From a virus: 47,101 nt of DNA. This document shows, one piece after another, positions 6,001 through 47,101 of the stretch (position 1 is its first letter; each line of letters starts with the position of its first letter). The translations under genes and the position numbers were made by a program. Where the stretch lies: the IMG/VR virus record IMGVR_UViG_3300046804_001641, positions 1 to 47,101 of that record; one strand, written 5' to 3'. Under the pieces are notes generated by a model, which was not told the DNA's origin, did no database searches, and saw only the letters and a program-made list of their open reading frames with translations.

Positions 6001-9000
6001 GCTGAACCGTTGATGTTCTGAGTGCGTGTGTACACATTGCCTGAACGGCTGTACACTGTAACTGCACCAGCACTGCTGGTCGCTGTGGGATCGCCCACAA
6101 TCACTAGGTTGGCTGTGCTAGTAACGATAGTTGCACCAAAGCCGGCGGCGCCAGCAATGTTACTGCTCAATGCACTGGCGTCTTGTACAAACTGTCCGTT
6201 GATATTGGTGTATGTGACCACTTTACCAGTACCATCTGCAGGAGCACCAACTAGTGCTACGGTCTGGTCACTGCTGATTGTCACGCTGGAACCAAATGTG
6301 GCTAAGTTTACGTTAGCTGTGCGTGTAATTTCACCATTTGCAGTCCAGGCATCTTGTTTCTTGTATACTGCCCAGTTGCCATCAGTATCGTCAGTGTCAA
6401 TAAACACTAGGTCGTCAGGCTTCCAGCCATGTGTTGGTGTAAAGCTGGCAACGTCAGACAAGTAATCATATCTAACGCTGTTAAACTTCATCAAGTAACT
6501 GTGTGCGATGTCATTTAGTGCTTCAAAGCTGGACAAATCGTAATTTTCCAGTGTTACGGTGAAGCTGTAGATGTCGTTAATGCTGTCTACTCTAAACACA
6601 CCATCAAAAATACTCTGGCTGTTACGCAATACCACAATGTCACCAGCAATTAAGTTGTGCTGATTGTTACATTGCATGATCACCTGCTGTGTTCCAGCCT
6701 CAGCTGTTACAATATCAGTGATATTGACATCAGTTTCTGTAACACGGTATACATTCCATTTACGGTCAAAGTCTTTGGCTACCCATACCAGAGCACCAAC
6801 TGAGATGCTAGTTAGGCTGGCGTTTAAATTGGTGTAATCAGCAAGATCAAATACAGTTAAATCAATGTCATCTAGACGTGGGTAACCCGCAGTGATTAGA
6901 CCTGCTGAGTTTTCGTAATCATACTGTACGGTGTTAAACAAATTCTCAGTATATGTTGTGGGCCACTTGTATAGATCTGACTTCTTGTAGCTGACAATCT
7001 TGTCGCTGTATACACCCGAGTTGGCAATAAACTCCAGATAGCTGGGTGTGCCAGCAAATTCAGTCTCAGGTAGTTCCACTTCCACATACTGGCTGCTGTC
7101 CAGTGCGCCAAACTCACCAGTGCGTACTGCCCATTCTTCGTATAGGTTGATGTTACCACTAATCTTGTCAAAGTTAGCAGTGGTCAACGCATTAACGCTG
7201 TTTAGTGTGCCCTTCTCTTTGATGTAGCCCTGATATAGTTTCAATTGGCTAACGTCAGTAACACCCAGTTCTTCCAGGTATGCACGTTTGCTGAATCCAA
7301 TCAGCGCCTTGCTGTGATTGGTAAAGTCTGATTCTAGATTGACGTCATTGACATCATAGAATGTCTGGAACACACCTGACTTGTTGTTCAAGTTGGGCAA
7401 CATGGTAGCATTGCTAATATCAGCATCAACTTCTGCCCAGCCGTTGATCTGGAAGTTGTCAGTGCCCGCTAGATCACTCAGCGCAGTGTAAGGTGTCTGA
7501 TTGTATATGACAATGTCACCCTTGTTGTAATCGGTATTTGGATGCCATTCCGTAGTAGTTTGCTGGTTCAAAATAAAACCAGGAGTATTGGGCGAGCCGT
7601 TCCAGTCGGCTGTCTTGTAGCCCACAAACTTCATACGGTACTGACGGTTGCCCAGCTCGGGCTTGTAAATGATGTCGTTAAACACAGTGACATTATTAAA
7701 CACAAAAATGTGTTCATACTGTACCAGATGCAACTCAACAAAACCAATAACACCCTGCTCCAATGTGACAGAAGTGGAGTTATTTCCGTTCTGGTCAATT
7801 AGGCGACTGATACGATATTGTGTTTTGGGGCGAATCTTGAAAGTGTTGTCCAGGATCTTGCTACCCACAGCAGTATTGTCCACTGCATCAATAACATAAT
7901 TTGTTGAGATCAGATTGAGAGTATCAATGACTGGGCTGAACACAATTACTGAGTTTTCGACCCAACCCTGTGCGCTCCAGTGTAGGAATTCTTTAGCACT
8001 TAATAGCCAGTTGCGTGTTTCGCCCAGGTCATTAATGGGTTGGTTAAACACAAAGCCCTGGCTCTTTAGGTAACGCTCGTAGCTGACGAAGAAGTCCACC
8101 ACCTGTTGTTTGGTTTTAAATTCGTATCCATATGGCACAGTCAGTTTGATCTTTTCGTAATCTTTGTAGATCAGTGCCTTTTGGTTACCCACTTTAATTG
8201 TGTATGCATCGCTGTTAACACGGCTGGGGATAATAGTAAAGTATGGATTGTTGTAATCGTAACCTTCCACGCGATATCCGCCAGCAGATTTGACTACAAT
8301 GACCGCACTGTAGTTGACCTTCTTGATTGGCACGCTCTTGTACAAGTGAATGTCAAAATCTTCGTCAGGTACAATAACACTGCTGTTGGTGCTTGTGGGG
8401 CTGGCTTGTTCTGCCAATACCTTGATGTAATTTTTATCTGTGAAGCCAGCAAACTTGTGAACCAGGTTCACGTCGATGTTTGCCACATCAGTTTTTAATG
8501 TTGTTAATGGGTCAATACCCAATCCGCGAATGTAATCAGCTACCCAGTTGATATAACCAGCATTGCTGACTTCTGTTCCGCTGGACTTGTCACCATTAAT
8601 AAATGCATCAGCAACAGTCAGGCGAGTGTTGGTCAGCTTGTTAGTCCATTGATCGCTAACTGTATTTTTGTAATAGTTGTAAGTGTCTAGGAACTTGGCA
8701 AAGTACTGTGCAGGCTTCATTAGAGCAAGTGCAACTTGCACATCAAATGCATAATCACTGCTCTTGGTCCAGGCACTTTCTACTGGACCACCGTCGCCCA
8801 CTACCCAGCTGGCGCTGACAGTGTTGGTGTTTAGTGACAACACCACACTGCTGTTAGGCCCAAGCAATGTACCATGCTCATCAACGGGAATAATAGTGCT
8901 CAACCCTGGACGAGCATACATGTCATTGATGTATTCGCCAGTGTCGTTAAGTTGGTCTGGTCCGTGTAGAATGCGACCTGCTTCTAAGTCTGCCCACAAC

Positions 9001-12000
9001 ACTGTGTTACCGCTAGTGTAAGGTGCTGGGCCATACTCAGCTTCCCACCACCAGGGTTTCTCGCTGAAGCCCAGCATTTCCCATGCGTGGGTGTGTGGGC
9101 GATCAGTGTCATAGTAGTACTGGTAAATCTTTCTCCAGCCGCCTGGCAAGTAGTTGCCGTCAATCTTGTTGGTGCTGGCTCGGTAGTTCCAGGTAAAGTC
9201 GTCACCATTCTTGAAGTCTGAGTTGGTGCTGAAATCCAGTCTGTTGTTGCCTACCCATGTTAAGAAACGGTTGGCAATGATCTGATTGAACTCAGCCAGT
9301 GTGTAGTCGGTATTACGGAACTTGCCTGGGATAATTTCGTGTATGTCCAGACGAGACGCATCGTATTTGACCTTGATGTTGTTGTAAATGCGGTTTTCCA
9401 ATTCAAGGATAACTGCATCACGGAAATCGTTAAATGCTGGCGTAATGCTACCGTCGTGACCCTGGATAACATTCATTGACGTTCTGTATGTGTCGTCTAG
9501 ACGCAGTTCAGGAATGAAGCTGGGGTACATGCCCATTTTGGTGGGTGTTTCGGGAATCCAGCTGCCGTTGGTATTGTTATAATCCACCACAGTCAACACA
9601 TCGCCTGCAACCAGTGTGATGTTGTCAATATTAATGGTTATTGCAGGTCGATCGCTGTTAAATGTAAAGTCACGGCCTAGTATCAGTTGCTCACCATTGC
9701 GGTACACCAGCACACTGCGCTTGCTGGGTTTGAACGGGTCGTAAATGGCAGCAATGTCATAAATCTGTTCTACTGTGGTGATGTTGTAGGTGATTGTTTC
9801 CTTCTGATCGCCGTAACCCAGCATGTCACTGTAATAGAATGGGAATGAGGAATCTTTAACCTGGTTAATATAAGATAATGCTTCGTCAACTGCGCTAATT
9901 GGATCCATGTGATCCAAACCAGACAAGGTTTCTAACGACAACAGGAATCTATTTTTAAATTTAGCGTATTCGCGCTGTGCGTATGTGATACTGTTTACAA
10001 AACTGTAATCAGGATGTGTCAAGAACAGTTGTGCAAATGTTACTGGAGAGCTGTGTTGTAGGATTTTACCACCAACGTTTTTAATGTTGATATCTCGCAA
10101 ATTACTGCTACCAGGGAACACACCAGCGGATAAGGTGCTATTGGTAAAGCACTCGTTCACGTGGTTACGCAATTGGCCCAGTGTCAGGTCAGTGAAGTTA
10201 AAGTTGATACCATTGTATTCCAGGTTTTGTGGAATACTGTAATAGCTACTGGTAGCAGGTGTGCTGTTGTAGATCAAAATATCAATTTTGTCACTAACAG
10301 CAAATGTATATTCTAGATTTAGATATGTCTTGCCACGAGCAGTATAGGTGGTTGCCAGGCTGTTGCTTACTGGCACGTTGTTGACATACACTAGCAAATT
10401 CTTGACAGTGGTGTCAGCGTCAGGCGCACTGTCAATTTCAAATGCAGTGCCCATGTCAGTTGTGTAGATATAGGTGTATTGTTGGAACTGTTTGGTTGGT
10501 GTAGCAACCTTTTGCCACAAGTTCTTCTCTTGATAGTTGGTTCTATCCATGTACTTGTGTACATACCCAGTCTGTAACGCAACAGTTCCTAAATCGTATG
10601 TAAAACTACGAGTGCTAAAGAAGTTCTCAAATACAATATCACCAATGTTGTTAAAGTTGCGATAGGTTAATGGGAATCCCAAGTTCGCATCGTCGGCGCC
10701 AGTACCCACTTTGTATCCGAACAACTCAGTACCGATAAAGTCAGTACCAGGATACACTGTAGTGTCACCAAAACTGTTTCCACTCTGGTCAAACACATCG
10801 AACAATGGTGCCTGGTTAATGTTAGTTTTGATCTGACTTAGTGCCCATTCGGTGCCGTTAAACCAGTAGGTATTACCCTTGCGTGTCGCACCAAACAACA
10901 CAGTCAATTGGTCATATATGGCAATCTCGCCGTCATCTGCTAGTACCAAATGTATCTGTGTGCTGCCGTCATCTTCTGGGTCAACTAGATTGACCACGTA
11001 AATCTTGTTGCGTACATTGTCGTCCAGGTCTGCTGAGAATATTACTCGCATGCCGTTGGTCAATGCGTAGCCATCAATAGTGTAACTGGCTGCACCTTCC
11101 ACATTGCTGAACGCATCTGTTTGTGAAATGTCAAATAGGTCAATGTTGGCCTTGGCCAGCTTGCCTGAATTAAACAACTGCAAGTCGGCATCAAATTCAA
11201 CGATTGGTCGGTTGGCACGAGCTGCCTGGTCAATAATTGGAATAAAGTTGTTGTATACCGCAGTGGCATTGATAACGTCAATATGGAACCAACGGTTGCC
11301 ACGACTCCACACGTTGCGGTCCTGGCTGGCTCGGTTGATTGTCAGGTAATCTTTACCTTGTGGGCTGCTCTGACTTTCGTCATATGCACTGCTGTCAAAT
11401 GCCACACTGTCAAACGGAACTTCCACGTTGTCCAGGAATCCTTCAGGAGTAATCAGTTCAGCAACTGGTACCAGTTTAATTGCACGACCCACGCCCTCAA
11501 CATAGAACTCTTTGTTCTGATAGTAAGTAGGACTTACTGAATTATCAAACAACACTTTTAGGCCATTGGTAAACACTACGCCAGAATTGGTTGTGTAGCT
11601 GCTTTTACCAATGATGTCAGCATCCACATCAACAGTGGTTGTAAACAAGTCGTCTAGAATTCTGATAGTACCATATGCGTCAGGATTACTACTGTCCTGA
11701 TAGTACAGTGTAGTTTCAGGTGCAGTGATAACTGGTACGCGAGTTAGATTGTAGTCGCCAGCAATAGAATAGTATTCTAGGTTGCCAAACTCGGTGCCTT
11801 CTTTAACACGAACTTTTTCACCAGCATCTACGTTGACTAGCCAGTCTAGACGGATGTAAGGATTAGCTGGGTCAGTAACACGATCCACACGCAAACGCCA
11901 CACGCTCACACGGTAGTCAGGATCAACATAGCCTGATCCATCATAAGGCAATGTTGTGTAATTTACAGTAGGGTCAGGATTTGTGCCCACAGCCCACAGT

Positions 12001-12902
12001 TCAGTATTGTTAGCTTGTTCTAGGAACACAATGGTCTTGCCGTCGATATTACGTTGACCATCAATATTGCCCACCGCAGACATGAAGGCATCATAGTTCA
12101 CGTTGGCAAGATCACGATAGTTCAAACGTGTTGCAAGATCGGGTGAATACTTTAATGGCAAGTCCAATAGATAGTCTTGTGCATCCTTGACAGGCACGTT
12201 AAATGTCAGTGTACCAGCAATGATACCGTTGTTAACTACGCCCAAGATCTCACGGCTGCTGACGTTGTCTTGATATGACTTTGTGCCAGATACACCTGGT
12301 TCAGTCTGGATCCAGAACTTGCTGCCGATCTGATCGACAGTGAATGTATAAGTGCCACCGCGCTTTAGGCTGATGGTGGGATTGAATGTGCCAATGTTGT
12401 TAAATGTATAGTTGCCATTGGTACGATCTAGGCTGGTGTTGATAGTGGTGCCAAAGTCCAACGAAGCGTTGGTAATGGATACGCGGTCAGGACCAGCAGG
12501 CAACCAGTAGTACTGGCTGAAGTTTACAAACTTGTCGTAGTCAATTTGTCCGTCAAAGTTATAGTATTCATCGTTGAACAAACGGCTGTGGTTATCAGTC
12601 TTACCATTATAAAATTTAATTTTAGCAATTAAGTCGGGATATGAATTTACATAACTGAGTTTGTCATACTCATCACGAATAACCACACTGGGCTCCAGCT
12701 GATAGTTCTGTCGTGTGGCGTCGGACTCTAGTACATATGGATCGTCAGTCTTGTAGTTAGGTAGAATTTTTCTACCTACAAATCCAGAGATCTTCTTGAG
12801 TTTAGGCTCTGATATTAATTTGTCTACAGTGGCAGATAAAAACTTCTTGTTAGTTTCGGTTTGGAAAAACTCAGGAAGTAAATCAAGAGACCTTATTGGC
12901 AT
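1..12902 (-). CDS. Giant baseplate/tail structural protein in the gp7 position, C-terminus beyond the window
   Basis: The reading frame starts at ATG 12902-12900 (MPIRSLDLLPEFF) and is still open at base 1, giving at least 4300 codons. I read the frame at several places (bases 1-420, 1500, 5100, 6240-6660, 10440, 11700) and found no stop. It follows gp6 by 17 bases in the same operon, where T4 has gene 7, so a role in the outer baseplate wedge or attached fibres is inferred from position. T4 gp7 is 1032 residues, so this is at least four times longer. Visible parts: an aromatic-rich N-terminal region (FSQYYWLP near residue 140), a tryptophan-rich motif KPWWWEAEYGPAPYTSGN near 1285, two W/Y-rich segments resembling carbohydrate-binding modules near 1785 and 3480, seven FG-GAP repeats at about 2195-2745, and two tandem GYxSNPxIIIxGG repeats near 3390-3450. 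The family name is uncertain; that it is a virion protein is likely. Confidence 0.85.
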   Translation of the reverse strand, partial: MPIRSLDLLPEFFQTETNKKFLSATVDKLISEPKLKKISGFVGRKILPNYKTDDPYVLESDATRQNYQLEPSVVIRDEYDKLSYVNSYPDLIAKIKFYNGKTDNHSRLFNDEYYNFDGQIDYDKFVNFSQYYWLPAGPDRVSITNASLDFGTTINTSLDRTNGNYTFNNIGTFNPTISLKRGGTYTFTVDQIGSKFWIQTEPGVSGTKSYQDNVSSREILGVVNNGIIAGTLTFNVPVKDAQDYLLDLPLKYSPDLATRLNYRDLANVNYDAFMSAVGNIDGQRNIDGKTIVFLEQANNTELWAVGTNPDPTVNYTTLPYDGSGYVDPDYRVSVWRLRVDRVTDPANPYIRLDWLVNVDAGEKVRVKEGTEFGNLEYYSIAGDYNLTRVPVITAPETTLYYQDSSNPDAYGTIRILDDLFTTTVDVDADIIGKSSYTTNSGVVFTNGLKVLFDNSVSPTYYQNKEFYVEGVGRAIKLVPVAELITPEGFLDNVEVPFDSVAFDSSAYDESQSSPQGKDYLTINRASQDRNVWSRGNRWFHIDVINATAVYNNFIPIIDQAARANRPIVEFDADLQLFNSGKLAKANIDLFDISQTDAFSNVEGAASYTIDGYALTNGMRVIFSADLDDNVRNKIYVVNLVDPEDDGSTQIHLVLADDGEIAIYDQLTVLFGATRKGNTYWFNGTEWALSQIKTNINQAPLFDVFDQSGNSFGDTTVYPGTDFIGTELFGYKVGTGADDANLGFPLTYRNFNNIGDIVFENFFSTRSFTYDLGTVALQTGYVHKYMDRTNYQEKNLWQKVATPTKQFQQYTYIYTTDMGTAFEIDSAPDADTTVKNLLVYVNNVPVSNSLATTYTARGKTYLNLEYTFAVSDKIDILIYNSTPATSSYYSIPQNLEYNGINFNFTDLTLGQLRNHVNECFTNSTLSAGVFPGSSNLRDINIKNVGGKILQHSSPVTFAQLFLTHPDYSFVNSITYAQREYAKFKNRFLLSLETLSGLDHMDPISAVDEALSYINQVKDSSFPFYYSDMLGYGDQKETITYNITTVEQIYDIAAIYDPFKPSKRSVLVYRNGEQLILGRDFTFNSDRPAITINIDNITLVAGDVLTVVDYNNTNGSWIPETPTKMGMYPSFIPELRLDDTYRTSMNVIQGHDGSITPAFNDFRDAVILELENRIYNNIKVKYDASRLDIHEIIPGKFRNTDYTLAEFNQIIANRFLTWVGNNRLDFSTNSDFKNGDDFTWNYRASTNKIDGNYLPGGWRKIYQYYYDTDRPHTHAWEMLGFSEKPWWWEAEYGPAPYTSGNTVLWADLEAGRILHGPDQLNDTGEYINDMYARPGLSTIIPVDEHGTLLGPNSSVVLSLNTNTVSASWVVGDGGPVESAWTKSSDYAFDVQVALALMKPAQYFAKFLDTYNYYKNTVSDQWTNKLTNTRLTVADAFINGDKSSGTEVSNAGYINWVADYIRGLGIDPLTTLKTDVANIDVNLVHKFAGFTDKNYIKVLAEQASPTSTNSSVIVPDEDFDIHLYKSVPIKKVNYSAVIVVKSAGGYRVEGYDYNNPYFTIIPSRVNSDAYTIKVGNQKALIYKDYEKIKLTVPYGYEFKTKQQVVDFFVSYERYLKSQGFVFNQPINDLGETRNWLLSAKEFLHWSAQGWVENSVIVFSPVIDTLNLISTNYVIDAVDNTAVGSKILDNTFKIRPKTQYRISRLIDQNGNNSTSVTLEQGVIGFVELHLVQYEHIFVFNNVTVFNDIIYKPELGNRQYRMKFVGYKTADWNGSPNTPGFILNQQTTTEWHPNTDYNKGDIVIYNQTPYTALSDLAGTDNFQINGWAEVDADISNATMLPNLNNKSGVFQTFYDVNDVNLESDFTNHSKALIGFSKRAYLEELGVTDVSQLKLYQGYIKEKGTLNSVNALTTANFDKISGNINLYEEWAVRTGEFGALDSSQYVEVELPETEFAGTPSYLEFIANSGVYSDKIVSYKKSDLYKWPTTYTENLFNTVQYDYENSAGLITAGYPRLDDIDLTVFDLADYTNLNASLTSISVGALVWVAKDFDRKWNVYRVTETDVNITDIVTAEAGTQQVIMQCNNQHNLIAGDIVVLRNSQSIFDGVFRVDSINDIYSFTVTLENYDLSSFEALNDIAHSYLMKFNSVRYDYLSDVASFTPTHGWKPDDLVFIDTDDTDGNWAVYKKQDAWTANGEITRTANVNLATFGSSVTISSDQTVALVGAPADGTGKVVTYTNINGQFVQDASALSSNIAGAAGFGATIVTSTANLVIVGDPTATSSAGAVTVYSRSGNVYTRTQNINGSASDQFGYSLAVSDDGSWLYVGAPGNNKVYAYYKNGSTYSAHTGNVSVTGSDSASGDLFGYSVACSTDGRQLIVGAPNHDTGSVSNSGAVYIFDKTTENFVANGVTAAFTTHRTPTSKYTVYIDGTVVTSGFTLVGSTFTFSPVIAAGKVITIDTNNLVQFKELSETTGVVDNKFGTGVEICNNNCTLYVGSPANDGAYGDSGSVYRYTNQGRVYAEITGTVTNPTVTAGHSLRINGYEVVFTSTTLTSVISDINNKAIPGVTASNVSNQLYITSDTVRGFNRLEILPGNNTAPLTALGLDIYVLSQTINNPLPSSNAKFGEKIFVTDDSATLFVTGTGGTTYLPTTFDSGATVLDTNTIRFTDPVVNGGSVYVFDYLDKPGNTAADPSLFGFTQQLCNSDISAGDKFGASIATAGDTVLIGAPQDDLGGNNAGLVFKFTNTTGTKGWTRLRNQEARVDLDYVNNLYIYNKVSGKKVVTLDYIDPGKGKIAGEAAENIDYITSYDPARYNYNTSSSGIYDTALTWGDAQVGQIWWDVSACKFIDYEQGDFTYRSTNWGMMFPGSSVNVYQWVKSIQLPSEYTGAGTVKNPADTKYVVETLVNPVSGVLTTYYYYWVSGITAQSSNKKTLSIAEITNMIADPNGQGVEYAVLLDASTVGLYNVDSYIAADNAVLHIDYDVQKNYDLIHSEYTLLQEGNPDIDIPDKIWRKMLDSLAGYDSLDKAVPDTNLPVADKYGVSFRPRQSMVVEREAAVVNLINWCNLLFMKHPISELINLNYWVDKTPVPTAASGRWDIDVDNLLDLSYLNVDAYTPGTLVLVREDSSLQGFWTIYELNGTGDTWVITDDVQAYDTMNAWSYADYYSEGFSATTVVNHTVPEYKDLVSLSAKDGAIVKVLNNGRSQWELYQLSGTTYTSIALQNGTVQVDADYLNASTTLPIVVKNILNGIRYDIFVKTLKSELSNFLFVFFRYVLSEQKQVDWLFKTSFISVLHKIRKLAQFNNYQNDNQTYLQQYIEEVKPYRTILREYVLDYEGNDYYNGDVTDFDVPAYYDTTLGRYRSPSGEESTDSIKWTQPEYISWYQNYGMRVDSIIIENAGTGYVSNPDIIITGGGGTGAEAYAVVSGGSLREIVVTKSGDGYTSNPTIIIDGGSGSDARAYAVLKNSKVRSFNTTLKFDRLTYKTQVYPWFANTHYTTDTLVTYDHGIYIVANTFTSGSSFSGDNLEPYDQELLSNTNDRIAALYNAGAGQPGLTVDTFNVTVLSSVTANANVRVSNISNVHVGMQFTGANLVPSVVTGFANIGGVVHATLDHAQTISANSTVTVSSYDFGQIIDGIDYPADLVFGPGFVGTTSVSTTMVGNVSATKYLTVASNVGIVAGMTITGTGTIPATVISPSVIINGNSYVQMDTEQTISNGAVLTFSISDNITYDSRYYGSFADVALGTRAEDLIIDGAKFVDTYNSHAPEELVPGQAFDTLDMKVYSTPGSDYDNNGAGPEIRIHSFASQTGEDTFSYDQPGSLNDTIFVYSKQLGYQRPGLNFTQNFVNRTITLVDPLGPQDNLYIYVFGSSGANEITNMEYYGNGTKTDFRLPVPLDLLSGLTQSVVTDTYDGLGFEVAGFDGDTLSTTSISSFVLINGVKTTNYSIQATETNAKLVFSTPPSANEQIHVYLFNNGSSTTQTFMEINTNFYNVTTSNPTYPYTPIFPQDYRITLDSPIYTASPLSDNVIVEFGGLRLRPSNTKHVIADGLTNKFYVSTTAQDLPDSIADTDIKVSVDGRLLQIFQDYVVTPNDHVTTRSVQLFNTPVENSIVAVSIVTGADFVVTDANTITLLPTANTVYDLNNPNEVKVVSFSNHDSARIWTQVFQGTTSATISTTVGYDALGYEADAFDSTTTSSLTTKRFTLDRDVNNLSYTWVTLRGVKLLPNYDFIIENGNTLVLADSISMGVTDVLVVTLFCENTQENEIGFRIFNDMLGNTGYYRINASATTELAQPLNWYDTEIVVADA
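2545..2740 (-). repeat. Two tandem GYxSNPxIIIxGGGxG repeats within the giant protein
   Basis: Two copies of about 32 residues lie side by side: GYVSNPDIIITGGGGTGAEA and GYTSNPTIIIDGGSGSDARA, each followed by a short alanine/valine strand and a turn. Glycine-rich units of this type are common in virion proteins of aquatic T4-like phages and are usually beta-stranded. Boundaries are approximate. Confidence 0.7.
4668..6320 (-). other. Seven FG-GAP repeats (predicted beta-propeller domain) inside the giant protein
   Basis: Seven consecutive repeats fit the FG-GAP pattern (FGxSVxxxxDGxxLxVGAP then GxVYxF): FGSSVTISSDQTVALVGAP, FGATIVTSTANLVIVGDP, FGYSLAVSDDGSWLYVGAP, FGYSVACSTDGRQLIVGAP, FGTGVEICNNNCTLYVGSP, FGEKIFVTDDSATLFVTG and FGASIATAGDTVLIGAP. 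The first FG lies at residue 2203 and the last at about 2707. Four units have a following blade strand such as SGAVYIFDK. Seven is the number that closes an integrin-alpha-type propeller. These domains usually bind proteins or glycans, so a host-surface or fibre-docking role is a reasonable inference. Repeats 5 to 6 and 6 to 7 have longer inserts than the others, and repeat 6 lacks the AP of the GAP motif. Confidence 0.8.
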
Positions 12903-28442: not shown

Positions 28443-28461
28443 AGACTTACGTAGTAAGTCT
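28443..28461. repeat. Perfect inverted repeat at the stop of the minus-strand island
   Basis: AGACTTAC and GTAAGTCT are separated by three bases. The repeat touches the TGA stop (28463-28461) of the frameshift extension reading frame and lies where the convergent transcripts meet, so it may define the 3' end of the gp26-like mRNA. There is no T-run. Confidence 0.45.
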
Positions 28462-28679
28462 CAAAAGAATGGAAGTCCAGACTTTTTAGTTGTTTCCATG
28501 TTGTCTTTAACTATCTTGCTGATAAGTTCGCGTTCCTGTTGGGATAAACACATGGCATCGTCGTAACTGAGTCCACCACGCATGTACCAGGTCATACGCA
28601 ATGCATCATCTTTAAAGGCTTTTGATTCTTTGTCGAACTGATCCAGCAGTCCCACGATGCTCTCATTGTCTAATGTCAA
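28461..28679 (-). CDS. Tail assembly chaperone extension (gp51-position), expressed by -1 frameshift
   Basis: A 72-codon frame ending in METTKKSGLPFF, with the core MTWYMRGGLSYDDAMCLSQQ followed by ERELISKIVKDN. Read alone it has no ATG start; only a TTG (28679-28677) overlaps the gp26-like stop. The frame is also open upstream, and an in-phase slippery heptamer lies 12 bases before that TTG. After a -1 shift it continues from gp26-like residue 282 through RSRL into this sequence, giving a fusion of about 358 residues. It follows the gp26-like gene as T4 gene 51 follows gene 26, but T4 gp51 is 249 residues, so orthology is unproven. Beside the tape measure gene, a G/GT-type chaperone role is the best explanation. 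The zero-frame protein and the fusion would both be made. Confidence 0.7.
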   Translation of the reverse strand: MTLDNESIVGLLDQFDKESKAFKDDALRMTWYMRGGLSYDDAMCLSQQERELISKIVKDNMETTKKSGLPFF

Positions 28680-29536
28680 AAGCCTTGAGCGAAAAAACGA
28701 GCGTAATCGAATTCAATCTCCAGTTTGAATTCTTTTTCACAAGCTGAACACTTGCTATCAATGGGTTTAACACCCAGTTCTTTGGCGTTTTCTTCCATCC
28801 TTTCCTGCACTGTACGCATAATAGTGCTGGGTGAGTTCACGTAGAACTCACGAATGAAACGTGGATTTGTCACCACCTGATTGTCCTCAGTAGTGATACT
28901 TTCAGTGCTGTTAGCAACATTATCAATACCCAGATCAGTCATAGACTTGGTGTAATCTTCTAGACGTTTCTGACGAACTTCAGATTTAATAGTATCATCT
29001 ACCATAGTGTTGATGATCTTTTGCTGTTCATATGCTACCAGGCTGGCTTTGCTGGCCTGCAGGTAGTTCATGGGTTTCAGTTTGATAGCTAGTCCGCTGG
29101 TCTCTACTGGTTCACGATAGTTGGGCATACGGATTCCACCCAGCACTGATGCCAGGTCAATGTCGTAGTCGTGTTCTTCAGAGCAGTGTGGGCATTTGCT
29201 GCTCACTGACATACTGGGTCCGTAGCTGGCAATGCGAATAGCCAACAACGTGCTGTCCACGTCCACTGTGGGCATTTTCCAGGCGTCCTTGACGTTGGGC
29301 GCACAACTTTCAATTACTTTAACCACGCTGGTGCCGTTCAACAACGCATCGGGTGTGCGTAATGTGATTTCGTCTTTGGTGGTCATGGGAAAGATGGGAA
29401 TTTCCCCAGTCGCGGGCAAATCCAGTGATCCGTCGGGCCAATAACTGCCTTCGCTAGTCAATTTGACATATAATGCGGGTTGGCGAAAGTGTTTCGCTAA
29501 TGGGTTTACTGCTGGTGTTGCACTTGGTTGAGTCAT
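28676..29536 (-). CDS. 26: gp26-like baseplate hub / tail assembly chaperone protein
   Basis: A 286-residue protein of the T4 base plate protein family (gp26 type). The start is set at ATG 29536 (MTQPSATPAVNPLAKHFRQP), since the upstream part of the open frame crosses the promoter region and does not look like protein. Core features are LYVKLTSEGSYWPDGSLDLP, FPMTTKDEITLRTPDALLNG and a SYGPSM turn, typical of this family. It has two cysteine knuckles, CPHC at 115-118 and CSAC at 263-266, likely sharing a zinc ion. Near the C-terminus the sequence DYARFFAQGF ends the zero frame, and the two Phe codons form the slippery site for the longer fusion. Divergent from the tape measure gene, with interlocked late promoters between them. 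In T4, gp26 is needed for hub assembly but its molecular role is poorly defined. Confidence 0.85.
   Translation of the reverse strand: MTQPSATPAVNPLAKHFRQPALYVKLTSEGSYWPDGSLDLPATGEIPIFPMTTKDEITLRTPDALLNGTSVVKVIESCAPNVKDAWKMPTVDVDSTLLAIRIASYGPSMSVSSKCPHCSEEHDYDIDLASVLGGIRMPNYREPVETSGLAIKLKPMNYLQASKASLVAYEQQKIINTMVDDTIKSEVRQKRLEDYTKSMTDLGIDNVANSTESITTEDNQVVTNPRFIREFYVNSPSTIMRTVQERMEENAKELGVKPIDSKCSACEKEFKLEIEFDYARFFAQGF
28691..28697 (-). promoter_or_regulatory. -1 ribosomal frameshift slippery site T TTT TTC
   Basis: The minus strand reads CGT TTT TTC GCT in the gp26-like frame, placing T TTT TTC exactly in X XXY YYZ phase. Both Phe codons re-pair perfectly after a -1 slip. It lies four codons before the zero-frame stop, and the -1 frame is open through to 28461. 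Downstream there is only a weak 4-base stem (TCAA/TTGA). Confidence 0.7.
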
Positions 29537-29555: not shown

Positions 29556-29570
29556 ATGGATACTACCACA

Positions 29571-29578
29571 TATTTATT
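29571..29578 (-). promoter_or_regulatory. Late promoter -10 (AATAAATA) for the gp26-like operon
   Basis: Minus-strand AATAAATA with predicted start near 29564, giving about 28 bases of leader to ATG 29536. It faces the plus-strand TATAAATA 15 bases away, so the two promoters interlock. Confidence 0.5.
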
Positions 29579-29591
29579 GGCACAAACCCCC

Positions 29592-32500
29592 ATGGATGAT
29601 AAAGAATTAGACGCAGAAATTGAAAGACTCAAGCGGGTCAGCACTAGCCTGCGTGAAAGCATGGAAACTCTTCAGAAGGGTCTTGACGGCACCAAGAAGA
29701 GTAAAGAGCAATTGGTCAAACTGGGCAAGGCTGCCGAAGCACAAATCAAGACTTACGAAGATCTTGGTGAAAGCCTGATCTCATTACGTGAGCAAGTTAA
29801 ACGCACGACCAACACTCAGGAACGAGCTGAAAAGGAAGAAAAACTACGACGTCTAGAAGCACAAAATGCTCGTGACAAAGCCGAGGAAGGATTCCGCCAG
29901 GGTTTAGGAAAAATGACTGGTGCGTTGCTGACTGGTATCGCTAACACGTTTGTTGGTGGTGTCAAGGCTGCACTGAGCGGCAGTGATGGTATTACTGTTG
30001 CTGCCGAGTTCATGAAGGGTGGGCTGGACACAGCTAACAATGCTGCTCAAGCTGGCGCAGGTGCGCTGAAAGATTTCGGTGCTGCCACTGCTGGTGCTGG
30101 TGGTAAGATTGGTAAATTTGGTGTCGCTGCCAGTATAGCTGGTTCTGCAATTGGTTATCTAAGCAACCAGATGACAGAACTGGCCAAGGCCGGTATCAAC
30201 TTCATGATCACCCAGACCACCAAGCTGATGGGCGACTTCGTCCAGTTGAGTCAGGCGGGTGTAGTGTTTAGTGGTGGCATGCTGGCCATGGCCAATACTG
30301 CGCTCAACGGCGGTATGACCCTAGATCAGTTCAGCAAGGTGGTATCTGCCAACCGAGCTGAACTTACCAGTCTAGGTATGAGCATGGGCGATGCCAGCAA
30401 GCGCATGAGTGGTGCCATGGCTGCTGGTGGTACTGCCATGCGTAAAGGCTTATTTGCACTGGGTATGACAGTGGAAGAGCAGGCAGACACTGTGGCCAAG
30501 ACCATGGCTATTATGTCAGGCCCTGCACAACGACTGAAAGCCAACGATGCTGAAGTTGCCAAGCAGACTGAAGATTATGCTAAAAACTTGAAACTGTTGG
30601 CAGCACTGACTGGCGAAGACATGAAGGCTAAGTCAGATGCCATCAGGAAAGAAAACGACACTCTGGCATTCCAGCAAAAGCTGGATGAAATGAACGAAGG
30701 CCAACGTCTAGAATTACAAAAAGCCATGGAGGGTATGACCGAGAGTCAACGCCGTGCGCTACGTGAGAACATGATCTATGGTACTGTTATCAGTAAAGAC
30801 ATTGCCATTTCACAAGCCACCAACTCGGGTGTGGCCAAAACTAACCAGGAGTTTGCAGAAGCTCAACGTGCTGGTGCGCTGTCGGCAGAGAAGGCTCGAG
30901 ATATTCAAGCCAAGAACGCTGACGAAACATATAAACAGGCCATGGGCAACAAGGCACTTGCTGCCGCAGCCATGGCAGGTAACCAAGCTGCATCTGATGC
31001 AGCCAAATCACAGTTGAGTGACGCTCAATATCAGAGAAAACTTAGTGCGGCTGCTACTGAGGAAGAAAAGAAAAAGATCGAAGACGAATATAAAGCCGGT
31101 AAAGAAGGTAAGAATACTGCTGCCGAACTGATGCAAATCAATCAGGACTTTGCTAAGGAGATGCAAAAGATTGCAGTTGGAGCTCTGCCAGCTTTTGCTG
31201 ATGCACTAAAATCAGTGCTTAACAATGTTAGAGCGTCAGTGCTAGAGGCAGTTAAAGGTGCAGCCAATTCGACAGGTATGCCTGCCTGGTTGGCTCCACT
31301 GTTGGGCGTGGCCACAGCATTGCTACAACTGTTGCCATTGTTAATTAAAAGTAAAACTGCTGAGACAGTTGCTGGCGGGGCTCAAGCCGCAAAAACAGCC
31401 TATGCAAAAACGGGTAGTATTCTAGCAGATAACGCTCTAGCAAGGGGTGATACAAAAGGGGCGGCACGGACTGTTGGAATAGAGGCGTATAACAGAGCGC
31501 ATATTGGGTCTAAAGGCACAACTATTGCAGAAAGACACGCAGAAGGTAGAGCCGCGGAATTAAAAGCAAGAAAAGAATTCTTTGATAACCAACGTGCTGC
31601 CAGAGCCGGTGCTGGTACTGGTGCGGCACCAGCTGGCGGTAAAGGAGTTATGGGTGGCGGCGGTGGCATTGGTGAGACTCTGCAGAGTCTTGCTAAAGGT
31701 GTCAGTGCTTTTGCCACACCACAAGCTGCTCTTGGATTAGGTGCAGTTACACTAGCTATTATTGGTCTAGCCAAAGCCTTTGAAGTGGCCAGCCCGGGAT
31801 TTGAAGCGTTTGGTAAAATGGTTGGTGAGATAATTGAATCCACATTTACTGGACTATCTACAATTATTCCACCAATGGCAGACGCAATTAAACAAGCTGT
31901 CGAGGCAGTGGGCGGTGTGTTAACTAGAGTGTTTGAGGGTATAAAATTGGTAATCCCACCAATCACTACACTGATTACCAGTGTGATCAAGTCAATGGGC
32001 GAAACAATGGGTGTAATATTCAATGGTATAAAAGATACAGTACCACCCATCCTGAATGCCATTGGCGATACCTTTACTAAATTTGGCAACGCGGCAGTCG
32101 CAATATTTAAACAGGTGGGTGAAACTGTCACATCAGTCATCAACTCGTTAACTGGATCTATCATTAAATTGAGTAATGACACCAACCCAGTCAGATTGTT
32201 GGAAGTGGCTGGGGCTATAACTGCACTGGGTGCCGCATTTATACCATTTGGTATAGGTGGTGCCCTAGCTGGATTGTTCACCGCAGGCGGTGGATTCAGT
32301 CAAATCATTAAAGACCTAACTGCGTTTGGTAATCTAGATCCAGTTAAGCTGGCGCAAGTGGCAGAAGCATCTAAAAAGCTAACTGACAGTCTACCCAGTG
32401 CCGCCCAAATGGCTGCAATGGCAGCATCAGGATATGTTTCCAAACTGACTGGTGGTACTCCCAGTGGTGCTGGTTCAAATACACCAGCAGCTACACCAGC

Positions 32501-32702
32501 ACCCAGCTCGTCTAGTTCTGCTAGCACACCATCGTCAGCCAATGCTGCCAATAACAACACTGCTGGTGGAAATGACACTCTTTCAGTTATGAAGGAAATG
32601 CGCGATGCAGCCAGATCACAACTGACCATCCTGGAACGCACTGTTCGTGCGGCAGAAGAGACACTAGCAGTTAACAAGAAGATATTGAGTGCCACACACT
32701 AA
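29592..32702 (+). CDS. 29: Tail tape measure protein (gp29-like role)
   Basis: A 1036-residue, helix-rich protein with the composition of tape measures. It has a charged coiled coil at about 1-110, a glycine/alanine-rich hydrophobic region near 120-210, and a long helical middle rich in K, E, A and M. Three strongly hydrophobic segments follow (WLAPLLGVATALLQLLPLLI, LGLGAVTLAIIGLAKAF and AGAITALGAAFIPFGIGGAL). A tandem 29-residue repeat lies at about 750-840, and a disordered S/T/P/A linker precedes the C-terminal helix. Start 29592 (MDDKELDAEIERL) is chosen because the late promoter lies at 29548-29555; no clear ribosome site is visible for either candidate. T4 gp29 is 590 residues. If each residue spans about 0.15 nm, the tail would be near 150 nm. 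The gene neighbours the gp26-like chaperone and the portal. Confidence 0.75.
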   Translation: MDDKELDAEIERLKRVSTSLRESMETLQKGLDGTKKSKEQLVKLGKAAEAQIKTYEDLGESLISLREQVKRTTNTQERAEKEEKLRRLEAQNARDKAEEGFRQGLGKMTGALLTGIANTFVGGVKAALSGSDGITVAAEFMKGGLDTANNAAQAGAGALKDFGAATAGAGGKIGKFGVAASIAGSAIGYLSNQMTELAKAGINFMITQTTKLMGDFVQLSQAGVVFSGGMLAMANTALNGGMTLDQFSKVVSANRAELTSLGMSMGDASKRMSGAMAAGGTAMRKGLFALGMTVEEQADTVAKTMAIMSGPAQRLKANDAEVAKQTEDYAKNLKLLAALTGEDMKAKSDAIRKENDTLAFQQKLDEMNEGQRLELQKAMEGMTESQRRALRENMIYGTVISKDIAISQATNSGVAKTNQEFAEAQRAGALSAEKARDIQAKNADETYKQAMGNKALAAAAMAGNQAASDAAKSQLSDAQYQRKLSAAATEEEKKKIEDEYKAGKEGKNTAAELMQINQDFAKEMQKIAVGALPAFADALKSVLNNVRASVLEAVKGAANSTGMPAWLAPLLGVATALLQLLPLLIKSKTAETVAGGAQAAKTAYAKTGSILADNALARGDTKGAARTVGIEAYNRAHIGSKGTTIAERHAEGRAAELKARKEFFDNQRAARAGAGTGAAPAGGKGVMGGGGGIGETLQSLAKGVSAFATPQAALGLGAVTLAIIGLAKAFEVASPGFEAFGKMVGEIIESTFTGLSTIIPPMADAIKQAVEAVGGVLTRVFEGIKLVIPPITTLITSVIKSMGETMGVIFNGIKDTVPPILNAIGDTFTKFGNAAVAIFKQVGETVTSVINSLTGSIIKLSNDTNPVRLLEVAGAITALGAAFIPFGIGGALAGLFTAGGGFSQIIKDLTAFGNLDPVKLAQVAEASKKLTDSLPSAAQMAAMAASGYVSKLTGGTPSGAGSNTPAATPAPSSSSSASTPSSANAANNNTAGGNDTLSVMKEMRDAARSQLTILERTVRAAEETLAVNKKILSATH
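31851..32111 (+). repeat. Three tandem 29-residue repeats in the tape measure protein
   Basis: Units begin GLSTIIPPMADAI, GIKLVIPPITTLI and GIKDTVPPILNAI at exactly 87-base spacing (31851, 31938, 32025). Each is an amphipathic helix with a conserved PP turn, ending in VF or IF. A degenerate unit may precede (31764) and another follow (32112). The DNA copies have diverged. Confidence 0.75.
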
Positions 32703-39380: not shown

Positions 39381-39409
39381 GATAGTACGACTTACACAGG
39401 GTAAGTTTT

Positions 39410-39448
39410 ATGCGGAAGTTCAACCGCGTACGGCCTAGAACGCCGTGA
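39410..39448 (+). CDS. Possible 12-residue leader peptide with tandem hairpins
   Basis: ATG to TGA encodes MRKFNRVRPRTP in the leader of the next gene. The same bases fold into GCGG/CCGC and ACGGC/GCCGT hairpins, the second followed by TTTTT. The ribosome site (CAGGG) is weak and translation is unproven. Confidence 0.25.
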   Translation: MRKFNRVRPRTP

Positions 39449-39467
39449 TTTTTAAGGAGAAAATAAA

Positions 39468-40469
39468 ATGGGACGTCCTCTAAACAAGAAATATTTCGGT
39501 AACCGCAACCAGGGTACCGGTGGTTACGAAGTAACTGGTAACCTATCTAACAGCCAAAACTATGCTGACGATCGTATCGGCGGTGAAGGCGTTGACTATA
39601 TCAACTGGTCAACACTAGGTGCTTTCCGTGGTAACGGTACATTTGGTATCACTGGCCTAGCATTGCCAGCACCATCCCTACCAGGCGGTGTGCAAGCAAC
39701 TTGGACCTTGCTATTTGAAGTTGAAGGTGTTTCAACTGGTGCAGGTAAAACTAACCTAGCAGTTGGCGACACTTTTGGCCACGCAAGCATTCCTGGATTG
39801 ATCGCTAAAGTAACTGACCTGAGTGGTGCTAACGCGGTATTCAGCGTAACAGCCTCTGGCGCTAGCCGTGGTAACGCACTTGCTTATGCTTCATTATTGG
39901 CAGACACACAGGGCCTAACATTAACAAAGATTGCTGGTAGTGGTACTGCTAGCACGTTCCTAGTTGACTTAAACTACCGCGTCAAGTCAGCCGCTATTGT
40001 TGAAAAAGGTTCTGGTTACACTGGTACAGAAACATTCACAGCAGTTGTAACAGGTAACGGCGGTTCACAGACTGCTCCAGCAGGTACACTAGTGTTGACT
40101 ACTGACAGCGGTGCAGTTGGTTCATCAACTAACCAAGAAAACGCTATCATCATGTACGCTAACACAAGTGGTTCAGGTTCTACAGGCCTCGCCGCTGACG
40201 TTATCAAACAAGTGAACACACGCACTTACAAAGTCAAAACATCTGACGGTATTGGTAAAGTAAAACTAAGTACTGATTCTACACCTGCTACAGGTTATGC
40301 TTATATGGTTGCCACTTCTGCATCTGGCGCAACTTATTATGTTACCAAGCTGACAGCACACCGAGCTACACTGGTTGCCAAGACTGGTGACGAGGCACTG
40401 GACGGTATGTCAGTACAGTGGACATTGGGTTCACCAACTGGTTCTATTGTACAGATCGAAAATGCCTAA
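39468..40469 (+). CDS. Virion structural protein (MGRPLNKKYFG family)
   Basis: A 333-residue protein starting MGRPLNKKYFGNRNQGTGGY, an N-terminus I recognise from abundant structural proteins of marine and freshwater T4-like phages. The rest is glycine, threonine, serine and alanine-rich beta structure, with a GSGYTGTETFTAVVTGNGG unit like those in the giant baseplate protein. It has its own promoter, a strong AAGGAG ribosome site and a terminator, consistent with high expression. Codon choice resembles gp23 (many CTA leucines). A capsid decoration or tail-surface role is possible; nothing in the sequence decides between them. Confidence 0.75.
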   Translation: MGRPLNKKYFGNRNQGTGGYEVTGNLSNSQNYADDRIGGEGVDYINWSTLGAFRGNGTFGITGLALPAPSLPGGVQATWTLLFEVEGVSTGAGKTNLAVGDTFGHASIPGLIAKVTDLSGANAVFSVTASGASRGNALAYASLLADTQGLTLTKIAGSGTASTFLVDLNYRVKSAAIVEKGSGYTGTETFTAVVTGNGGSQTAPAGTLVLTTDSGAVGSSTNQENAIIMYANTSGSGSTGLAADVIKQVNTRTYKVKTSDGIGKVKLSTDSTPATGYAYMVATSASGATYYVTKLTAHRATLVAKTGDEALDGMSVQWTLGSPTGSIVQIENA

Positions 40470-43738: not shown

Positions 43739-46700
43739 GTGGCAATTAACAAAGATTTCGTCGTCAAGAATGGCATTTCAGTTGCGGCTGATGCCAACGT
43801 TGCTGGTAACGTAAATATCACCAGCAATATCAGTAGTACCAGCACCAGCACGGGTGCATTAAAGGTCACTGGCGGCGCAGGCATTACCGGAAACGTTAAT
43901 ACAGGTGCCATTTACACAGACAACTATTACTGGGCCAATGGTACACCATTCGTCAGTAGTGCATTCAAATATACCGCATCCAATACCGCGCCCACTAGTC
44001 CCAGCAACGGTGACGAGTGGTTCAATACAGACACCAATACATTGTATGTTCGTGCCAATGACGGCACCAGCTCATTCTGGTTAGACTTAACCACAACCCC
44101 ACAAGTTACATCGACGCCCAATCTGTCGATCACTGACTCCACTGCCAGCGGTAACCTGACAACTGGTGCATTAACTGTTGCTGGCGGCGCTGGCATTTCT
44201 GGTAATTTACGGGCCAATGCAGTCTATACAGACAATTATTACTATGCCAACGGCGTGGCATTTAGCCCAGATGCTATCAGCAACACACTGAGTATTGAAA
44301 CTGTAAACCGTGTAAGTGCAGATAATGCACTGAGCGTTCGCATCGATACTGTCAGCAATGCAGTGTCCATTGTCAGCAACGCATTGAGTGTTGAGACGGT
44401 AAACAGAACAAGTGCTGACAATGCACTGAGTTTGCGTATTGATGCAATCAGCAATTATGCGTCAGTAACCAGTCAACAACTGTCAGTTGAGACTGCCAAT
44501 AGAACGTCCGCAGATAACGCACTGAGCGTTCGTGTTGACACTGTTAGCAATGCAGTGTCTGTTGTTAGTCAGGCACTATCACTCGAAACAGTTAACCGAA
44601 CAAGTGCTGACAATGCACTGAGTTTGCGTATTGATGCAATCAGTAACTATGCGTCAGTGACTAGCCAACAGTTGTCCGCTGAAATTGCCAACAGAACATC
44701 GGCTGACAATGCACTGAGTGTTCGCGTTGACACTGTTAGCAATGCAGTGTCAGTTGTCAGCCAGGCCCTGAGTGTTGAAACAGCCAACCGTATCAGCGCA
44801 GTTAATGTGGTTAGTAATGCAGTGTTAGTTGTCAGCCAGGCCCTGAGTGTTGAAATCGCAAACAGAACGTCGGCTGACAATGCGTTAAGTGTCAGAATTG
44901 ATACCGCAAGCAATGCAGTCAGCATTGTTAGCCAGGCATTGAGTGTTGAAACCGTAAACAGAACGTCAGCCGACAATGCACTGAGTGTTCGTGTTGACAC
45001 TGTTAGTAATGCAGTAAGTAACGAAATATCCAATCGCATCAGTGCTGATAATGCGCTGGGTTTAAGAATTGATACTGTCAGCAATGCAGTCAGTATTGTA
45101 AGCCAAGCACTGAGTGTAGAAACTGTCAACCGCACTAGTGCAGATAATGCACTGAGCGTTCGTGTTGATACGGTCAGTAATGCCGTTTCAATTGTCAGTC
45201 AGGCACTGAGTGTAGAAACTGCTAATCGCATCTCAGCAGTCAATGTGGTCAGTAATGCACTATCAGTTGAGATAGCAAATAGAACATCAGCTGACAATGC
45301 ACTAAGCAATCTGATTAGTGCATTAAGCAATAACATTTCTGTTAACTATGCCCGTTTGAGTGGTGCAACATTCAGCGGCAACGTTACTATTGCAGCCAAC
45401 TTGGTCGTCAGTGGCAATACTACGATTATTGGTAGTAACAATTACGCCACCACTGACAACATTATTGAATTACATACACCCAATGTGGCCAATATTGCAC
45501 AACCTTGGAGTGTAGACGACGGTAAAGACATTGGTATTAGAATTCACTATTACAAGTCAGGTGCTGATAACAATGCTTTCCTTGGCTTTGCAAATGATAC
45601 CAGTTACCTAGAATGGTATGGATCAGGTGCAGAAGGTGGTAATGTCTTTACCGGTACTTACGGCACATTTAAGACTGGTAACCTAATCTTAACTGGCGAC
45701 GCTACTATTAGCGGTGTCAGTGTGTTGGCAAAGCTGGATTCATTAAGCAATTCTATATCAGTTGTCAGTCAAGCCCTATCAGTTGAGACAGCCAACCGCA
45801 TTAGCGCGGTTAACGTGGTCAGCAATGCAGTTAGTATCGTAAGTCAAGCCCTATCAGTTGAGACAGTCAATCGCGTAAGCGCAGATAACGCATTGAGCGT
45901 TCGAATTGATACAGTCAGCAATGCCGTATCAGTCGTAAGTCAGGCATTATCAGTAGAAACTGCTAATAGAGTATCAGCAGTAAACGTAGTCAGTAACGCA
46001 TTATCAGTTGAGATAGCAAACAGAATATCCGCAGACAATGCCCTAAGTAATCTAATTTCTGCGCTGAGTAATAGTGTATCAGTCACGTATGCACCCAAGG
46101 CCAATCCCACATTCACTGGTACACTAACTGGCGACATCATTGCGTCTACAAATAATGGCAACGGTACTAACTTTAAAGTTGGTGATGACATATGGATTGG
46201 TGATGTTAACCAAGCCAATGCCTTGCGTCTGACAGGCCAACAAGATGGTACTCAGGGTTACATTATATTTGGTAACAGTAACACTCAGACATTGGGTCGT
46301 AGTGGCACTGGTGCATTAACATATCAGGGCGCATTTACAGCACAGGGTGGTATTCAGAATACTCCAATTGGTAATGCCACTGCCAGCACTGGTGCGTTCA
46401 CCACATTAACAGTAAATGGTGTGAACGTCGCCGCGGCAATTGATACGATCAGCAATGCGGTTAGTATTGTCAGTCAGGCACTGTCAGTTGAGACAGCAAA
46501 TAGAACATCAGCTGACAACGCACTGAGTGTTCGCATTGACACAGTCAGCAATGCAGTATCAATCGTTAGCCAGGCACTGTCAGTTGAGACAGCAAATAGA
46601 ACATCAGCTGACAACGCACTGAGTGTTCGCATTGACACAGTCAGCAATGCAGTGTCAGTTGTAAGTCAAGCATTGAGTGTTGAGACTGCCAATCGGGTGT

Positions 46701-47101
46701 CAGCAGTTAATGTGGTTAGTAATACTCTAAGCGTTGAAATAGCTAACCGTATCAGTGCTGATAATGCATTGAGCAATTTAATTAGCGCACTGAGTAACAG
46801 TGTATCAGCCACATACGTAAACAAGACAACCGCAGTAGTCAACAACCAATTGGTTGTTGTTGCCCCATCACCAGTAACTGAAGGTGGCCAGATTGTTCTA
46901 GCTTGGGCTAACATTTCAGGTATCACTGGGCAAGCTAACAGCACCTGGAACATTGATGTCGATGGCACCAATAGCCTGCGCTTCTTCTATCAGAATGCCG
47001 CAGGTGCGACTGCTGTACCACTTTCGATTACACAATCCAACGGTAACGTTAACGTTTTAGGTAACATACTGGCATCCAATTACTATTGGTCCAATGGCGT
47101 C
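43739..47101 (+). CDS. Long fibre protein 2, paralogue of fibre 1, C-terminus beyond the window
   Basis: The frame starts at GTG 43739 (VAINKDFVVKNGISVAADAN), preceded by GGAGAG about nine bases upstream, and stays open to the right edge: 1121 codons. The start aligns with fibre 1 (FVVKNGLTV). Two TGAL-VTGGAGI modules with YTDNYYWANG or YTDNYYYANG follow, then coiled-coil arrays at about residues 180-535, 665-780 and 900-1020. A globular module at about 550-660 is nearly identical to that of fibre 1, and further beta modules sit between coils. The gene lies 52 bases after fibre 1, and a small hairpin (TCCGC/GTGGA) overlaps its ribosome site. Probably the shaft of a trimeric fibre; the receptor-binding tip would lie to the right of this window. 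Confidence 0.8.
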   Translation, partial: MAINKDFVVKNGISVAADANVAGNVNITSNISSTSTSTGALKVTGGAGITGNVNTGAIYTDNYYWANGTPFVSSAFKYTASNTAPTSPSNGDEWFNTDTNTLYVRANDGTSSFWLDLTTTPQVTSTPNLSITDSTASGNLTTGALTVAGGAGISGNLRANAVYTDNYYYANGVAFSPDAISNTLSIETVNRVSADNALSVRIDTVSNAVSIVSNALSVETVNRTSADNALSLRIDAISNYASVTSQQLSVETANRTSADNALSVRVDTVSNAVSVVSQALSLETVNRTSADNALSLRIDAISNYASVTSQQLSAEIANRTSADNALSVRVDTVSNAVSVVSQALSVETANRISAVNVVSNAVLVVSQALSVEIANRTSADNALSVRIDTASNAVSIVSQALSVETVNRTSADNALSVRVDTVSNAVSNEISNRISADNALGLRIDTVSNAVSIVSQALSVETVNRTSADNALSVRVDTVSNAVSIVSQALSVETANRISAVNVVSNALSVEIANRTSADNALSNLISALSNNISVNYARLSGATFSGNVTIAANLVVSGNTTIIGSNNYATTDNIIELHTPNVANIAQPWSVDDGKDIGIRIHYYKSGADNNAFLGFANDTSYLEWYGSGAEGGNVFTGTYGTFKTGNLILTGDATISGVSVLAKLDSLSNSISVVSQALSVETANRISAVNVVSNAVSIVSQALSVETVNRVSADNALSVRIDTVSNAVSVVSQALSVETANRVSAVNVVSNALSVEIANRISADNALSNLISALSNSVSVTYAPKANPTFTGTLTGDIIASTNNGNGTNFKVGDDIWIGDVNQANALRLTGQQDGTQGYIIFGNSNTQTLGRSGTGALTYQGAFTAQGGIQNTPIGNATASTGAFTTLTVNGVNVAAAIDTISNAVSIVSQALSVETANRTSADNALSVRIDTVSNAVSIVSQALSVETANRTSADNALSVRIDTVSNAVSVVSQALSVETANRVSAVNVVSNTLSVEIANRISADNALSNLISALSNSVSATYVNKTTAVVNNQLVVVAPSPVTEGGQIVLAWANISGITGQANSTWNIDVDGTNSLRFFYQNAAGATAVPLSITQSNGNVNVLGNILASNYYWSNGV
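44265..46805 (+). repeat. Coiled-coil repeat arrays of fibre 2
   Basis: Three arrays (about 44265-45345, 45735-46085, 46435-46805) of the same 32-residue unit as fibre 1, separated by beta modules. Variants include DALS-LRIDAISNYASVTSQQ not seen in fibre 1. Confidence 0.8.
46475..46653 (+). repeat. 83-base perfect direct repeat with 96-base period
   Basis: Bases 46475-46557 and 46571-46653 are identical. They are one coiled-coil unit apart, so unequal recombination would change fibre length by exactly 32 residues without breaking the frame. Confidence 0.85.

Follow-up and report, generated by a model that had tools for sequence, protein, structure and literature searches.

Tail assembly chaperones of the lambda type are made as a short form, gpG, and a -1 frameshift fusion, gpGT, and a passage of PMC5009743 describes the tail chaperone frameshift as widely conserved "except T4". 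For T4-like phages, passages in PMC10885494 and PMC12846349 cite Vladimirov, Gautam and Davidson (Virology 2022) for the identification of the tail assembly chaperones; as cited there, some T4-like phages have a short chaperone gene together with a fused one (PMC10885494), and poly-T -1 signals are known in T4-like chaperone genes (PMC12846349). The equation of gp26/gp51 with G/GT is thus not new and, going by these passages, was already published in 2022. T4 gp51 is essential, and its function has been described as unknown; passages of a T4 review name gp26 and gp51 as hub assembly chaperones, with gp51 absent from the particle, and give genetic support for gp26 as a hub component. According to a passage of PMC3037559, gp51 is absent only from Aeh1 among 26 T4-like genomes, and cyanophage and marine vibriophage gp51 is about one fifth of the normal length, lacking the first ~200 residues. 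For phage Adele (Vandenendeviridae, Andersonviridae), the -1 shift is described as taking place at the T-rich sequence GTTTTT, close to where the short form ends, with the open frame kept in every genome aligned by its authors (PMC12846349, in the part seen). The literature searched, partly represented by such passages, yielded no description of the site reported below in jumbo phages or cyanophages, which is weak evidence of absence.

The window analysed here is a stretch of 47,101 nucleotides, positions 1 to 47,101 of IMG/VR record IMGVR_UViG_3300046804_001641, and carries a gp26-like gene next to a divergent putative tape measure gene (Table 1). With a probability of about 0.88, we read this locus as one gene that would yield two tail assembly chaperones through a -1 frameshift, the counterpart of T4 gp26/gp51. 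The gp26-like protein matched PF12322 T4_baseplate at 61.3 bits (E=1.4e-16; cut-off 24.5) and phrog_150, "baseplate hub", at E=1.2e-17, the query in both scans being the 283 aa from 29527 rather than the full 286 aa. The heptamer T TTT TTC lies in phase with the gene and is followed in the zero frame by four sense codons, GCT CAA GGC TTT, and then TGA. The first-pass annotation had placed this heptamer at 28697-28691, four codons before the stop, with a -1 frame open through it to 28461 and a fusion of about 358 residues, all of which agrees with the sequence (282 + 76 = 358). A conserved, in-phase X XXY YYZ heptamer within an overlap, as expected of -1 programmed frameshifting, is present. 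Across the 19 window genes scanned (9,422 codons), the in-phase T6 heptamer is unique; counting every X XXY YYZ type, there are 18 in-phase heptamers.

Table 1. Features of the gp26-like locus (window coordinates)
Feature	Position	Strand	Remarks
gp26-like gene, short form	28676..29536	-	286 aa; ATG 29536, TGA 28678-28676; PF12322 T4_baseplate
Slippery heptamer T TTT TTC	28691..28697	-	In phase with gp26-like frame; kept in relatives
-1 frame extension	28461..28691	-	76 residues past the FF codons, stop included; open frame and conserved residues
Predicted frameshift fusion (long form)	28461..29536	-	358 residues (282 zero-frame + 76)
Stem 5' arm AAGGCTTTTGA	28676..28686	-	Holds gp26 stop codon; 4-nt spacer after heptamer
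Stem 3' arm TCAAAAGCCTT	28615..28625	-	Pairs with the 28686-28676 arm
Divergent neighbour, putative tape measure protein	29556..32702	+	1048 aa; phrog_1535, phrog_305

Compared with these systems, the locus has, at the sequence level, the lambda-type arrangement of a short form and a -1 fusion, and it differs from lambda gpG/gpGT in its U-rich slip site with a downstream stem. No chaperone sequence family shared by lambda gpG/gpGT and the window protein was found in Pfam at E<=1. The lambda tape measure gene lies downstream in the same direction, whereas the window candidate, separated from the gp26-like gene by 19 bp, is adjacent but divergent; it matched phrog_1535 and phrog_305, "tail length tape measure protein", at E=7.2e-7 and 2e-5. 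T4-like gp26 and gp51 belong to the same PF12322 family and comprise, as in the window phage, a short protein and a longer one extended at its C-terminus; T4, however, encodes them in two paralogous, divergently oriented genes and lacks a heptamer where gp26 ends, whereas the window has a single gene with a predicted frameshift and a downstream stem. The likeness to the Adele group, which represents different phage families from the window phage, is at the level of the signal.

A tblastn search with the gp26-like protein returned 82 phage records, with identities of at most 32% among the 60 matches listed, mostly to jumbo T4-like phages. The order portal, large divergent neighbour, gp26 and small frame is common to Phosso, XbC2, GAP32, PA5oct, PBECO4 and RaK2, in which the divergent neighbour is annotated as a structural or hypothetical protein; the portal-divergent neighbour-gp26 order was not found in Atu_ph07. 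A first attempt to find a conserved stretch across all 19 jumbo proteins gave none.

The heptamer and the -1 overlap are kept across relatives, as assessed by the alignment check that the first-pass annotation had suggested. In a first look, all 14 loci with a visible gene end, the window included, had TTTTTTC in phase, with 73-83 aa encoded in the -1 frame, three of these loci (L005-L007) being one identical sequence. For the IMG/VR survey, jumbo-type loci, meaning loci retrieved with proteins of that group on contigs that are mostly fragments, were taken as the best 80 of 577, the best 80 of 569 and one scan with 32 relatives; 192 loci were fetched, and two (L115, L225) in which no stop was reached were dropped. 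All 190 remaining loci had an in-phase slippery heptamer (187 TTTTTTC, 2 TTTTTTT and, in L251, AAATTTT), so that the T6 type was present in 189/190, and the -1 frame ran at least 35 codons beyond the stop in 187, the other 3 hitting the contig end. Among cyanophage-type loci, the best 80 of 599 relatives in IMG/VR, TTTTTTC was found in 80/80, at a distance of 13 nt from the stop codon's end, and the -1 frame stays open in 79, the exception (L054) being cut by the contig end ~40 nt on. Over the whole survey, 269 of 270 loci thus have the T6 heptamer in phase, the loci being drawn from sets that overlap with one another and with deposited phages (L194 is GAP32 and L226 is Atu_ph07).

Deposited records inspected at the gene end carried the heptamer in 22 of 27 cases. 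It reads TTTTTTC in 20 (Atu_ph07, Phosso, XbC2, GAP32, PA5oct, PBECO4, RaK2, S-SCSM1, S-CAM8, Bakedbeans, SCTP-2, Vibrio 2.275.O, Munch, Hallingskeid, BF, LR756511, Aeh1, ACP17, P-HM2 and D482) and TTTTTTT in RAS14 and XacN1, and the -1 frame is open in all of the 22 except S-SCSM1. In S-SCSM1 (L019, 2175-2374), TTTTTTC is present and the conserved downstream frame is displaced by one more base (+1 or -2), which reflects either a genuine -2 shift or an error in the sequence. The heptamer was not found in T4, phiAS4, Cygsa01, STML-13-1 and LR756508. T4 and phiAS4 have a separate long gp51 gene instead. In Cygsa01 (L022, 1798-1982) and STML-13-1 (L317, 2293-2465), ATT TTC replaces the heptamer and the -1 ORF is kept, so that the pattern named by the first-pass annotation as contradicting a frameshift, two frames kept with no slippery site, is seen in this minority only; perhaps these two distant phages make the long form in some other way. 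LR756508, an uncultured large-phage relative of gp26 (L031, 2210-2512), encodes a comparable C-terminal motif in the +1 register. In RaK2 (L016, 3825-4046) and PA5oct (L014, 3831-4058), the -1 extension carries no gene annotation.

Downstream of the heptamer, the window can form an uninterrupted stem of 11 bp (-21.9 kcal/mol, z -2.41; 2/200 shuffles equally good). The typical spacer between a heptamer and a stimulatory structure is 5-9 nt. A structure of this kind, common at frameshift sites and not obligatory, is present here, slightly closer to the heptamer than is typical. Segments 3' of the heptamer folded more stably, at -10.4 kcal/mol, than control segments taken from the same genes, at -7.4 kcal/mol (n=162), a comparison with a small GC bias (0.412 vs 0.381) and among related sequences, for which the p-value is not independent. 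Within the window's group, the stem beat all 15 codon shuffles in 53 of 74 loci, 49 of the 74 being in the same register, and in two further sets it did so in 10/11 and 38/61, the latter mostly in other registers. The corresponding figure was 1/15 for RaK2-like loci, which show no such stem, and 17/79 for cyanophage-type loci, a weak signal. Since the stem is found in the window's group and most closer relatives, little in cyanophage-type loci and not in RaK2-like ones, the stem is lineage-specific, whereas the heptamer is general.

Covariation was assessed in 64 aligned sequences, in which 10 of 12 pairs had changes on both sides; 62 cells had changed on both sides, against 25.8+-3.8 after shuffling, a value reached in 0/500 shuffles, and slid registers gave at most 36. 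A tree-aware test, for which the column pairs listed in full were 18/80, 21/77 and 15/83, gave same-direction changes of 4.4/5 (columns 21/77) and 1.1/4 (18/80) with none opposite, and was not significant, supported independent changes being too few. RNAalifold run with no structure given predicted no consensus fold. In the window phage and most of its closer relatives, slippage is probably stimulated by this stem, which begins ~4 nt past the heptamer. Two other candidate elements were rejected: an upstream Shine-Dalgarno-like stimulator (8/163, against a background of 11%) and a known RNA family at the slip site, where the single match, to a microRNA, was at chance level (E=0.81).

Among the 164 distinct ORFs of the 190 jumbo-type loci, 163 end with NNT TTT TTC/T; elsewhere in the same ORFs this form encodes only 2 of 44 FF pairs, and NNT TTT TTC occurs once in 42,626 codons, a rarity that rules out retention of the heptamer merely because FF is required. 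In the -1 frame, R follows straight after FF in 158/163 and L or I occupies codon 4 in 159/163, and codons 1-4 are free of ATG, GTG and TTG in 157/163. This pattern argues for FRAMESHIFTING, not two genes, because a start of its own would leave the first -1 residues free, and yet they are conserved from the slip site onward. The competing idea, that the downstream frame is a separate small gene reached by coupled translation or re-initiation at the gp26 stop, can call on the own starts assigned by annotators in Phosso, XbC2, PBECO4 and D482, on the -1 ORFs that persist alongside ATT TTC in Cygsa01 and STML-13-1, and on an ATG, GTG or TTG near the stop (-30 to +15 nt) in 79/163 loci, although an ATG lies there in only 22/163. 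In the window itself, the first-pass annotation's remark that the downstream frame has no ATG holds up to the first in-frame ATG at 28595, but not as a lack of start codons: there is a GTG at 28655 and a TTG at 28679, the latter overlapping the gp26 stop, with an AAGG just upstream that is too close for a good ribosome site. A separate gene would leave the near-universal in-phase T6 heptamer of the survey unexplained, and T4-type gp51 is a continuous protein that includes the gp26 domain; we hold this alternative to be unlikely.

Slippage of the polymerase on the T run, giving mixed mRNAs, is a slightly less probable alternative still, suggested by the homopolymer nature of the site. Transcriptional slippage usually needs runs longer than those seen here; of the 163 distinct loci, 162 have six Ts and one has seven. 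Nor would slippage during transcription call for a reading phase in which two tRNA-Phe can re-pair at -1, or for C as the next base, which is seen in 99%, and the stem in the window's group suits ribosomal stimulation. As for a chance open frame, a sequencing error or a dead or mis-assembled gene end, the 76 codons stay open in 0.5% of mono-nucleotide shuffles and a lone case would not decide the matter, but conservation in relatives is much stronger evidence than single-sequence chance figures: persistence of the extension across the surveyed jumbo-type and cyanophage-type loci rules out an accidentally open frame, and together with the 22 deposited records it makes error of this kind exceedingly improbable. 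The proposal of the first-pass annotation that a -1 programmed frameshift joins the gp26-like gene to the downstream frame is accordingly upheld by the conserved heptamer and overlap and by a -1 frame constrained from the slip site.

In the frameshift reading, the majority of ribosomes would terminate at 28676 and release a G-like short form of 286 aa, the presumed counterpart of T4 gp26, and some would slip one base back on T TTT TTC, where each tRNA-Phe could pair anew with TTT, and go on for 76 more residues to yield a GT-like long form of 358 aa, the presumed counterpart of T4 gp51. By analogy with lambda, the short form, being common, would cover the tape measure protein, and tail tube subunits would be brought in by the scarcer long form. 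The sequences themselves show the heptamer, coding in the -1 frame, conservation, homology of the gp26 part and covariation in the stem, whereas frameshifting in cells, its efficiency and its stimulation by the stem are inferred; the support for a frameshift is about the most that sequence alone can give. We presume that the window-type extension is homologous to the C-terminus of gp51, and a chaperone function of the gp26-like products appears likely from their homology to T4 gp26/gp51, the neighbourhood and prior work.

The relation to T4 was examined through the two T4 proteins. Against PF12322, gp26 scored 215.6 bits over residues 1-206 of 208 and gp51 scored 177.5 bits over residues 1-201 of 249; gp26 ends in KEFFELL, and gp51 extends ~48 residues beyond the matching point. 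By sequence, T4 gp26 and gp51 are paralogues, with gp51 the longer, consisting of a full-length gp26 paralogue and an extension. The first-pass annotation had implied that T4 gene 51 lies downstream of gene 26, which is not the case: the two genes diverge, with 26 on the minus and 51 on the plus strand. Its description of the downstream frame as being in the gp51 position fails for T4 and is apt for P-HM2 and D482, whose records place a short gene, named gp51 or "hub assembly catalyst", in the -1 frame; the gp51 annotated in P-HM2 corresponds to the final part of the -1 extension.

Profile comparisons gave probabilities of 98.6% for the jumbo fusion against the cyanophage fusion, 98.6% for the cyanophage fusion and 77.3% for the jumbo fusion against T4-type gp51, and 96.5% for the cyanophage extension against the gp51 C-terminus, the gp51 profile being built from 12 sequences, one of them (L314) truncated. 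The jumbo extension alone matched weakly (19.5% against the gp51 C-terminus and 14.1% against the cyanophage extension), which means that it is mostly the gp26 part that carries the fusion-level scores, although the fusion alignments cross the extension in the same register. On these profiles, cyanophage extensions are firmly linked to gp51, and what ties the jumbo extension to it is mainly position and the gp26 part.

In Aeh1, a member of the Straboviridae, TTTTTTC is followed by a -1 extension of gp26 (L316, 2244-2426), so that the gp51 reported as absent from this phage may be present in this form. Frameshift extensions would thereby offer an explanation both for the short gp51 of cyanophages and marine vibriophages and for the absence in Aeh1. 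A frameshift site in Aeh1 indicates that the frameshift survives inside the family of T4, and its retention in almost all surveyed distant relatives as well as in Aeh1 suggests that T4, with its two paralogous genes, is the derived case. We lean, with modest conviction, towards a broader scenario in which a frameshifted gp26/gp26-51 gene was ancestral to the T4 supergroup (jumbo phages, cyanophages, vibriophages and Aeh1) and T4-type phages swapped in duplicated genes, one short and one fused and long; in the window lineage, a co-evolving stem on the stop codon would set the ratio of long to short form, and T4 gp51 would be a long-form tail chaperone. Beyond the work of Vladimirov et al. (2022), as far as it is represented in the citing passages, this analysis adds the breadth across jumbo groups, the codon-level constraint, the lineage-specific stem and the case of Aeh1.

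AlphaFold2 modelled the 286-aa short form with a mean pLDDT of 92.9 (71 sequences) and T4-type gp51 with a pLDDT of 85.4 (8 sequences), the C-terminal part of the latter being helical. Fold searches of the PDB with these two models returned no match at E<=0.001, and Pfam scans of the gp26-like protein and of T4 gp26 and gp51 gave no tail-chaperone family at E<=1. The genetic support cited for gp26 in the T4 hub, together with the CBB record, which labels its relative "structural protein", speaks against a chaperone role, being unexpected for a chaperone absent from virions.

Several public annotations overlook the long form or give the extension a start of its own. The stem-loop and its natural variants provide a series for testing how the ratio of the two products is set.

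Elsewhere in the window, a giant reading frame of at least 4298 codons (3-12899, minus strand) runs off the left end of the record, and an open frame of at least 1120 codons (43739-47101, plus strand) runs off its right end. A freshwater-2 RNA (Rfam RF02980; 71.3 bits, gathering threshold 49.9), a cis-regulatory motif, was detected at 39390-39470 on the plus strand; it lies downstream of a gp23-like capsid gene and ends over the start of the ORF at 39468-40469.
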